A stretch of 64,000 nucleotides of DNA from Diplonema papillatum. Lineage: Eukaryota > Euglenozoa > Diplonemea > Diplonemida > Diplonemidae. Positions 47,630 through 59,958 of this stretch are shown piece by piece. Location: positions 16,503 to 80,502 of the forward strand of contig JAPJBO010000991.1 of assembly GCA_030068145.1 (NCBI GenBank), written 5' to 3'. How positions within the stretch are numbered: the stretch's first letter is position 1; every line of letters begins with the position of its first letter. Below the pieces are notes generated by a model. It was given only the letters and a program-made list of their open reading frames with translations, searched no databases and had not been told where the DNA came from. A program made the position numbers and the translations under genes.

Positions 47630-48211
47630 ATGTCGTCGGCGACGCGGAGATCGAAGCTCTGGTACGTGTTCTTCGCGGGGTGCGGAGGGTCTGTGGCTTA
47701 TTTACGCCACGGCAGGCACACGAAGGACGCGAGGTTCAGCGACTATCCGGACTTCACGGGGCACCACACGGTCGTCGCGAAGAAGCTCACGCACTCGATG
47801 TACAACCACATGAAGCACATGAAGACACCTTCGGGCTTCACCCTCGACGAATGCATACAAGCGGGCGTCGATTTGAAGGGCAGTGCGCTGGGCAGGAAGG
47901 ACGCGGGGCTGGTCGCTGGGGACGTCGAGTGCTACGACTCCTTCCGCGACATATTCGAAGACGTCATCAACGAGCTGCACCCGTCTCGGAAGGAGCACCG
48001 GCGGTCGCTCAGCGAGTGCGGCGGAGTGCCGGCCCGGTTCGACCCGAAGCAGGTGCCGGAGCTCAAGCTGACGGTCTACCGCAACCTCGACGACTTCCCT
48101 TTCCCGCCCGCCATGTCGCGCGCCCAGCGCCGTCTCACCGAGACCACGCTGCAGAAGGCCTTCTCCCTGCTTCCGGCCCCGCTCGCCGGCCGCTACAAAT
48201 CGCTGAAGGAG
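47630..48211 (+). CDS. Phosphagen (guanidino) kinase-like protein, exon 1
   Basis: 194 codons from ATG 47630 to a donor GAG/gtacac at 48212, phase 0. Residues about 9-25 are hydrophobic (LWYVFFAGCGGSVAYL) after a basic start, like a mitochondrial or membrane-anchored N-terminus. The N-terminal guanidino-kinase domain is clear: DYPDFTGHHTVVAKKLT, KTPSGFTLDECIQAGVD, GLVAGDVECYDSFRDIFEDVI, then the start of the catalytic domain, NLDDFPFPPAMSRAQRR and LAGRYKSLKE. These kinases move phosphate between ATP and creatine, arginine or related guanidines. The nucleotide-binding SxRxR strand reads ELKLTVYRN here, so the arginines equivalent to creatine kinase R130 and R132 are Lys and Thr. The gene continues at 59325 beyond an 11.1-kb intron. 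Confidence 0.85.
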
Positions 48212-48690
48212 GTACACGACCCACTTGTTATACTGTTTTTATTTGTATAAGGGTGTCGTGGGGGGGCCTTCACGTGGCGACACTGTTGACCGCACCTGAA
48301 TTGAGTCGCGTCGCCGATCCTCCAACCGCCAGCATCATGTACTTGATGCGACGCGGAACAAGTGCCGACAGCACCGCCCGGCGAATAGAGGGCTACAAAA
48401 GTGGCAATCGGGGGGTGCTTACCAGCCAATGGCCTGATGGCTGAGTTCATACCCAAGCAGGGCTGCATCCTCGTGTTGTAGCCGTGTTGTGTATAAGGCT
48501 TCAGGAGGGGGTAGTTCTTACTGCATGGCGGATTACAGCGCATCATGCAGCGCGGGTGAGTCCAGTTGTCGTTCGTGACCTGACTCTTCGTCTTTCAGAC
48601 AATACAGCAGCAACGCACACATTCTACCCACAAACACACACACACACACCCACACACACACACTGGGCTAGACGGTTACCCATTACTGAG

Positions 48691-48991
48691 ATCACACACA
48701 CACACACACACACACACACACACACACACACACACACACACACACACACACACACACACACACACACACACACACACACACACACCACACACACACACAC
48801 ACACACACACACACACACACACACACACACACACACACACACACACACACACACACACACACACCACACACACACACACACACACACACACACACACACA
48901 CACACACACACACACACACACACACACACACACACACACACACACACACACACACACACACACACACAACACACACACACACACACACACA
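48691..48991. repeat. (CA)n tract 1
   Basis: About 300 bases of CA with a few single-base interruptions (ccacac, aacac). Confidence 0.98.
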
Positions 48992-48992
48992 T

Positions 48993-49337
48993 ACTAGCAA
49001 GCTTGCTTGAGCGCCGAAGGCGCGTCTAGTGGAATCCCGTTTTCCGTTTCCACCATTTGACGTACGCGATGCCTCCTAGTTCCACTCTTTAAGAGGTTGG
49101 ACAGGGGTAGTATTACGCAAACATCCAGGCTGTTTCCCTCTCCGCTGTTTGTACTCCCCCTTCCCCCTTACCCGTGTGCCGCCCACGCGGCCCTCTTCTC
49201 CTTGTATTGCCGGCCGGCCGCTTCCCATAACGGTGCTTTATCCTTTTCCTGCCTTTTAGTCCTGAGTTCACCCACTGCAATCCATGCCACAAGCGGTCCA
49301 GAAGCTCGAAAGACCAGAAACGGAAAGAAAGGGATTC
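48993..49337 (+). mobile_element. Solo end of a DIRS-2-type element
   Basis: Starts actagcaagcttgcttgag with the same hairpin (gcgcc-gaa-ggcgc) as the DIRS-2 ends at 54493 and 58844, followed by a diverged version of their cactctttta-gaggttgga and tgtactcccccttccc landmarks. It ends gggattc directly against the next (CA)n. No ORF: a solo or deleted copy. Confidence 0.65.
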
Positions 49338-49622
49338 CACACACACACACACACACACACACACACACACACACACACACACACACCACACACACACACA
49401 CACACACACACACACACACACACACACACACACACACACACACACACACACCACACACACACACACACACACACACACACACACACACACACACACACAC
49501 ACACACACACACACACACACACACACACACACACACACACACACACACACACACACACACACACACACACACACACACACACACACACACACACACACAC
49601 ACACACACACACACACACACAC
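49338..49622. repeat. (CA)n tract 2
   Basis: About 285 bases of CA with two ccac interruptions, between the solo end and DIRS-1. Confidence 0.98.
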
Positions 49623-49633
49623 CAACGACACAT

Positions 49634-58609: not shown

Positions 58610-59026
58610 GAATCCATCGCACGTAGGTCCATCTCTTGTTTGCACTCCCTCCTTCCCAGTTATTCGTGCCGTCTCTCGGCCCTTTCTTTCCTTTCTTCTT
58701 GGTTCATGTTCTGTGCCTGACGGATACGATATGATGTTTTCTTGTTTCACCGTTTTGCTGCCATTTGGGAAATCCACAGCACAGCATGGGTTGCATGTGA
58801 TTGAGGAATAAACTCGGGACAGGATAAAGGATTCCATACTACAAGCTAGCTTGAGCGCCGAAGGCGCGTCAAGTGGAATCCTATCCTGTCCACGAGAAGG
58901 GCGATGTATTCTTGTTTTCTCCACTCTTTTACGAGGTTGGAAAGGCTGGTTGATGCAAACAACGAACAGGCCAAAAAGGAACCGCACTGCCTTACATCTC
59001 TTGTTTGCACTCCCTCCTTCCCGGAT

Positions 59027-59323
59027 TCCACACACACACACACACACACACACACACACACACCACACAACACACACACACACAACCACACACACACACA
59101 CACACACACACACACACACACACACACACACAACACACACACACACACACACACACACACACACACACACACACACACACACACACACACACACACACAC
59201 ACACACACACACACACACACACACACACACACACACACACAACACACACACACACACACACACACACACACACACACACACACACAACACACACACACAC
59301 ACACACACACACACACACACACA
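59027..59323. repeat. (CA)n tract 4, forming the 3' splice site of the kinase intron
   Basis: About 300 bases of CA with aacac and ccac interruptions. Its last bases, acacacag, are the acceptor for kinase exon 2. Confidence 0.97.
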
Positions 59324-59324
59324 G

Positions 59325-59534
59325 ATTAAGGCGTCGGAATACGAGTCCCTCAACGCCCAAGGATGCATGTTGGCGAAGCCTGCAAGTGAAGCAGACCGTA
59401 TTTCCGGCCTTGTGCGTGACTGGCCTGATGCCCGAGGGCTGTTCGTCAGTGCAGCGAAGGACCTCTTCGTTTGGGTCAACGGACGGCATCACGTGCAGGT
59501 CATCAGCAGGGAAACAGGCGGCGATCTCGGTCAG
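59325..59534 (+). CDS. Phosphagen kinase-like protein, exon 2
   Basis: 70 codons, phase 0 at both ends (cacag before ATT AAG; CAG/gtactt after). It reads YESLNAQGCMLAKPASE, then GLVRDWPDARGLFVSAAKD, then LFVWVNGRHHVQVISRETGG, colinear with creatine and arginine kinases from the post-strand helix to the GGD/GGN loop. RDWPDARG is a family signature. In active enzymes VWVN is followed by EEDHxR (creatine kinase E231, E232, R236); here it is GRHHVQ, so the catalytic Glu pair and the phosphate-binding Arg are missing. Confidence 0.85.
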
Positions 59535-59826
59535 GTACTTGCGACTCTTTCTTTGAATTCCGCATCCGTCAAGATTTGTAGGAAATCCTCGAGGAGGCCG
59601 CCGTAGTTTCTTGAGGGAAGTTGTTCTACTTCGAGGCCCTCGAAGGCCAGTCGTATCGAAAATCGCTGTATCGTCAGATTTTCCGTTTGTCTAGTTTGGC
59701 ACGAAACCTGGTTGATCCCGTCAAAAAAATGCTTGTTTTAAGGATTAAGCCATACGTAGTTAGGTCCAGAAGGGTCAAGACCCAGGAAGTTGGATATCAG
59801 CCCAATCGCCAACATTGCACACACAG

Positions 59827-59958
59827 GCACTCCAGCGTCTCGTGGCAGCTACCGAAAGCATCGAAAATTCTTTCGGCGGAGTCACGCGGTACTTGTGGGA
59901 TCCGTCGCACGGCTACCTTGGTCACGATCTGAGCGAGATCGGAAATGCCATCGCTTTA
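59827..59958 (+). CDS. Phosphagen kinase-like protein, exon 3
   Basis: 44 codons after acceptor cacacacag (ends 59826), up to donor gtatgt at 59959, phase 0: ALQRLVAATESIENSFGGV, then RYLWDPSHGYLGHDLSEIG, NAIAL. It aligns with the RLxxAxxxIE helix and the LGYxxxCPSNLGTGLR strand of the family. At the position of the reactive Cys (C283 in muscle creatine kinase) there is Asp, and the following Arg (R292) is Ala. The last 80-100 residues of the usual protein, including the flexible substrate loop, are not found before 60.5 kb and may lie outside the window or be lost. Confidence 0.75.

Follow-up and report, generated by a model that had tools for sequence, protein, structure and literature searches.

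A creatine kinase homologue probably retained as a non-catalytic pseudo-enzyme in Diplonema papillatum

Gene structure and assembly

The window analysed here is a stretch of 64,000 nucleotides of the Diplonema papillatum genome (assembly GCA_030068145.1). It corresponds to positions 16503-80502 of contig JAPJBO010000991.1 (C991) and extends on the right to where that contig ends. On its forward strand it carries three exons of a gene homologous to creatine kinases (CKs), and two further exons have been assigned on a second contig, C1278. The features are listed below in window coordinates unless another contig is named; substitutions refer to brain-type CK (CKB).

47630..48211, + strand: exon 1, 582 bases, 194 codons, start ATG; donor GAG/GTACAC
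48212..59324, + strand: intron 1, 11.1 kb, GT..AG borders; CA repeats and two retroelements inside
53264..53509, + strand: RNase H domain of the first intron-1 retroelement (PF17917, E 2.8e-6; residues 882-963 of the frame 50621-53728); not kinase
57320..57811, + strand: reverse transcriptase domain of the second intron-1 retroelement (PF00078, E 7.4e-18; residues 522-685 of the frame 55757-58609); not kinase
59325..59534, + strand: exon 2, 210 bases, 70 codons; frame matches PF00217 (E 5.4e-10)
59535..59826, + strand: intron 2, 292 bases, GT..AG; borders CAG/GTACTT and CACAG/GCACTC
59827..59958, + strand: exon 3, 132 bases, 44 codons; contains C283D, N286E and R292A
59959..64000, + strand: first part of intron 3; donor TTA/GTATGT; continues beyond the end of C991
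C1278 39877-39764 (L034 9877-9764), - strand, outside the window: exon 4, 114 bases; acceptor GCACAG, donor AGA/GTATGT
C1278 39186-39067 (L034 9186-9067), - strand, outside the window: exon 5 (weakly identified), 120 bases; acceptor CCGCAG, stop TAA; 577 bases past exon 4

The two retroelements of intron 1 span 49647-58609 and look like DIRS/Ngaro elements; a tyrosine-recombinase match within them is sub-threshold (PF00589, E 0.0021). Upstream of the gene lies a lone 152-base fragment of eukaryotic large-subunit rRNA (46046-46197, + strand; Rfam RF02543, 215 bits).

Exons 1 to 3 amount to 308 codons, each exon having a length that is a multiple of 3, and are joined by phase-0 GT-AG junctions. 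Re-reading of the splice borders reproduced exactly the exon positions and residue count of an earlier note on this DNA. Exon 1 encodes the N-terminal phosphagen-kinase domain and runs into the catalytic domain, whose R130/R132 region it contains. Taken alone, its frame matches CKs (E 3.4e-25) and Pfam PF02807 (1.1e-20). The spliced protein, hereafter the C991 protein, aligns with residues 18-317 of CKB (4q2r) at E 6.8e-52, with few gaps and none at the three exon junctions tested. The proposed colinearity with creatine kinases is thus upheld, and chance similarity was rejected on the same E value. Both family domains are present: the N-terminal ATP-gua_PtransN domain (PF02807, 2.8e-20, 73 bits against a cut-off of 25.7) and the ATP-gua_Ptrans domain (PF00217, 2e-20, 73.5 bits against a cut-off of 22.4, profile positions 4-154 of 203).

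The minus strand of C1278 overlaps window positions 50129-64000 at 99.73% identity. All 17 mismatches, eight of which fall in CA repeats, and all 14 runs of gaps lie outside exons 2 and 3, which are identical in the two contigs, and contig error was therefore ruled out as the origin of the substitutions in these exons. Because the end of C991 duplicates the end of C1278, the gene is split over two contigs in the assembly, with exon 1 in C991 only, exons 2 and 3 in both, and exons 4 and 5 in C1278 only. Within intron 3 (60851-61295), a unit of ~41 bases occurs in tandem and inverted copies, and the contigs differ there by shifted 41-base gaps.

The earlier description of a three-exon gene holds for the three exons themselves, which lie where claimed, but not for their number, as two candidate exons on C1278 continue the frame up to a TAA. 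Initial scans of C1278 for C-terminal exons, using a four-sequence profile and tblastn, gave only weak candidates (E about 1 and, for exon 5, 12). Two of them were adopted as exons 4 and 5 because their order, reading frame, splice sites and similarity fitted. Every open window, on either strand, in the 44.6 kb that follow exon 3 was then scored for comparison. Exon 4 ranks first of 47,172 windows (score 27.8, runner-up 11.8), and owing to this wide margin we regard its identification as solid. Exon 5 ranks first of 48,256 (15.2, runner-up 13.8) and shares 5 of 38 aligned residues with CKB; its place in the exon order, its frame, the acceptor site, the stop codon and a modest similarity weakly point to it as the final exon. 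Its alignment is uncertain, and so are the changes read beyond R320 (D335, R341). The full frame comprises 385 residues over five in-phase exons. In each of the five exons GC content has its minimum at codon position 2; the maximum is at position 3 in three of the five.

Replacement of active-site residues

Aligned to CKB, the C991 protein shows the changes S128E, R130K, R132T, E231G, E232R, D233H, R236Q, C283D, N286E and R292A. R320 falls in an alignment gap, while D335V and R341N lie within the uncertainly aligned stretch. The seven substitutions reported earlier (at 130, 132, 231, 232, 236, 283 and 292) are exact, and at the CKB-aligned positions of the alignment with guanidino kinases, proposed then as a check, the canonical residues are absent. 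Three traits expected of phosphagen kinase enzymes are consequently missing, namely the ATP-binding arginines R130, R132, R236 and R292 (here K, T, Q and A), the acidic pair E231/E232 on the guanidine side (G and R) and the reactive cysteine C283 (D). Exon 2, in which E231-E232-D233 reads G-R-H and R236 reads Q, retains the fold signature RDWPDARG, as had been claimed. R135, R151, W211, P212, R215, W228, G288, P300 and others are likewise retained.

The alignment was set against 76 control rows (69 bacterial, four metazoan and three from the same genome), assumed functional from residues or annotation. The bacterial rows are those of 76 loci that were long enough for use, and the own-genome rows represent three of eight canonical CKs. 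R130, R132, R236, C283 and R292 are invariant in 76/76 controls. Among 44 columns conserved at >=95%, the C991 protein is changed at 12/12 sites that we take, from structures of the phosphagen-kinase family, to be ligand contacts, and at 11/32 others (p 6.4e-5), so that 21/32 conserved non-ligand columns are retained. Since the bacterial controls were retrieved by the patterns WVGEEDH and DFMH[NS]DH, their invariance at 228-234 is in part a product of that selection, and the test was rerun without these seven columns, giving 10/10 ligand contacts changed versus 10/28 others (p 3.9e-4). When only the four metazoan and three own-genome rows serve as controls, the counts are 11/11 versus 32/71 (p 4.1e-4). 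The five residues of the earlier note outside the pattern columns give a weak contrast (5/5 versus 15/33, p 0.031). As far as sequence can say, the C991 protein is a phosphagen-kinase homologue by descent that fails the defining catalytic tests of its family.

Paralogues in the same genome

Family searches of the whole genome (271.4 Mb, 2910 contigs) matched the N-domain in 11 places and the C-domain in 19. The matches were assigned to 11 copies, eight of them canonical (three in contig C194, two each in C171 and C310, one in C652) and three divergent (C991, C65 and C92); the exceptions are the second copy of C991 exon 2, in C1278, and a fragment of an exon that lies inverted in C310. These searches bear on an alternative in which the C991 protein is an active phosphagen kinase whose catalytic residues are relocated, or whose true exons are missed by a mis-joined model. 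An intron 1 of 11 kb and the common gains and losses of introns among the paralogues would suit a mis-joined model. However, the tested junctions align without a gap and the genome holds no further unassigned exon for this gene by these searches, which makes the alternative very improbable.

The C92 model (514 residues, two exons) carries R130F, R132T, E231V, E232Y, R236Q, C283H and R292T. C65 (378 residues, 3' end not found) retains R130, R132, E231, D233 and R236 and shows E232Q, C283S, R292K and a deleted 320 loop, without a significant excess of active-site change (p 0.12). The three divergent copies group together in the tree with support 99/96, on branches so long (C92 7.21, C991 4.46, C65 2.03) that false joins are possible. 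After the active-site columns had been masked and five long bacterial rows removed, SH-aLRT values were 86 for C65+C991 and 49 for C65+C92.

A second alternative is that the emptied cleft of the C991 protein took up another ligand or chemistry. Not all replacements there are bland, as charged and histidine residues occur (G-R-H for E-E-D, D for C283). On the other hand, a new cleft motif common to C92 and C991 is absent: positions 231-233 read V-Y-E in the former and G-R-H in the latter, position 283 reads H and D, respectively, and the two share only R132T and R236Q. Such neofunctionalisation therefore seems quite unlikely to us.

Further sequence features were observed in this family. The first exon of C65 is partly duplicated just upstream with near-identical N-terminal sequence (L038 3664-3900 and 4053-4526). 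The short element TTTGTAGGAAATNCTTGAGGAGGC, or a near variant, recurs in introns of C991 (window about 59571-59605) and C65 (L038 about 5690-5735 and 6930-6965). Four of five intronless CKs (L048, L049; contigs C194, C171) have the N-terminal extension NLEYLRKQNVADLVDGAIQELVKEKP, which to the eye resembles an RIIa/Dpy-30 docking helix pair and may be flagellar; a Pfam search of this extension gave no match at E up to 1.

Decay or retention

Neutral decay was simulated by random substitution, half of it transitions, applied to the final 385 codons of an intronless CK from the same genome. The simulation covered 11 distances between 0.02 and 1.5 per site, with 3000 replicates for each. A replicate was scored as a success if the 385-codon frame stayed free of stops and at least 11 of the 12 catalytic codons were changed, some of these sites lying in the weakly aligned C-terminal stretch. 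Successes numbered 0/3000 at every distance, and simple neutral decay from an active enzyme was rejected under this simple model. Indels were left out, and with them frame retention would be rarer still.

The C991 gene combines lost catalytic residues with an intact reading frame, which is what characterises a pseudo-enzyme; such proteins are well known among protein kinases and others. A frame open over five exons, the preferential change of active-site residues, the failure of the simulation to reproduce this pattern and the stripping of C92 at mostly the same sites together support a retained protein without catalysis over a decaying copy, in agreement with the earlier proposal of non-catalytic retention rather than random decay.

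The copy might nonetheless be a young pseudogene, one that shed its catalytic function at an earlier time, under selection of some kind, and that is now unexpressed or was recently silenced, aided by the intron-1 retroelements. The presence of two such elements and of long CA arrays in intron 1 is in keeping with this, and the simulation excludes simple decay of a working enzyme but not recent silencing after the changes. Against it stand the five in-phase exons with intact splice sites and stop, the identity of exons 2 and 3 in the two contigs and the conserved structural positions, most of which are kept. We regard a young pseudogene as unlikely. The reading that we favour, and consider likely, is a complete five-exon gene for a CK-type phosphagen-kinase homologue that has lost its nucleotide and guanidine chemistry but kept its fold, and that appears to be maintained by selection as a pseudo-enzyme.

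Dimer interface and possible role

In muscle CK, D54-R148 and D62-K196 form dimer salt bridges, according to PMC7934860; D54-R148 is also described in PMC3457962. All four residues are present in the C991 protein, as expected of a dimeric CK interface at residue level; the interface-region residue at CKB position 18 is not kept and is replaced by S. D54, Q58, D62, R148, R151, R152, R209, D210 and W211 are common to C991, C65 and C92, and K196 is kept in C991 and C65 only. The three aligned canonical CKs of this genome carry A54, K58, F148 and H210, and the other five canonical sequences show the same motifs for 54, 58 and 148.

Based on these kept residues, the C991 protein would fold as a CK-like dimer, and it is probably a retained, dimeric, non-catalytic pseudo-phosphagen-kinase. 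Like C65 and C92, with which it would make up a set of proteins that form CK-like dimers among themselves, it may act as a scaffold, sensor or partner subunit rather than as an enzyme; we lean towards a scaffold or partner subunit because the dimer-interface residues are kept. The C991 protein may pair with itself or with a related protein of the C65 type, in preference to the genome's canonical CKs, in which the matching D54 and R148 are replaced. Its role could be to position or sense partners in the creatine phosphate system without ATP turnover.

Tentatively, the lineage may have an entire non-catalytic branch of the family (C991, C92 and, part-way, C65). In this view the branch kept the ancestral CK dimer interface, which disappeared from the working CKs, and the paralogues would have split the tasks of catalysis and dimer scaffolding.

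Comparison with known systems

Diplonemids gained creatine-making genes, as stated in PMC10161547; a term search of that paper found neither arginine kinase nor phosphagen. If the C991 gene is expressed, it would bear on how the diplonemid runs its creatine phosphate system, and a stepwise loss of catalysis would be traceable in one genome, from canonical copies via the partly stripped C65 to the stripped C991 and C92. Our searches of an open-access library turned up no account of a phosphagen kinase that is non-catalytic and stands alone. A scan of viral contigs with exon 1 gave five stretches matched by pattern, none of which was confirmed.

Inactive domains occur in mollusc two-domain arginine kinases. 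The protein-arginine kinase McsB has the catalytic-domain fold in common with the C991 protein, with a weak match (E 5e-4). Unlike our reading of the C991 protein, McsB is catalytic, and PMC12387690 lists Arg29, Arg31, Arg126, Glu122, Glu213 and Cys168 as its key residues.

The canonical CKs of D. papillatum belong to the same family, and both kinds have an N-terminal stretch with an AGCG/GCG motif before the first domain. In the canonical copies VRTGRS, GEEDHLR, CPSNLGTGLR and ARGTAGVD are intact and D54 and R148 are lost, whereas C65 and C92, like C991, retain D54, Q58, D62 and R148. C92 is as stripped as C991 and has C-domain insertions as a feature of its own; C65, unlike C991, is only partly stripped. 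With dimeric brain and muscle CK (PF02807 plus PF00217), the C991 protein shares the two-domain architecture, the length and the alignment over CKB 18-317, as well as RDWPDARG, R135, R151, W211, W228, G288 and the dimer residues D54, D62, R148 and K196. Unlike these enzymes, it has replacements at every listed ATP-binding arginine, at both guanidine-side glutamates and at the reactive cysteine, and neither its 60-72 substrate loop nor its R320 loop resembles theirs.
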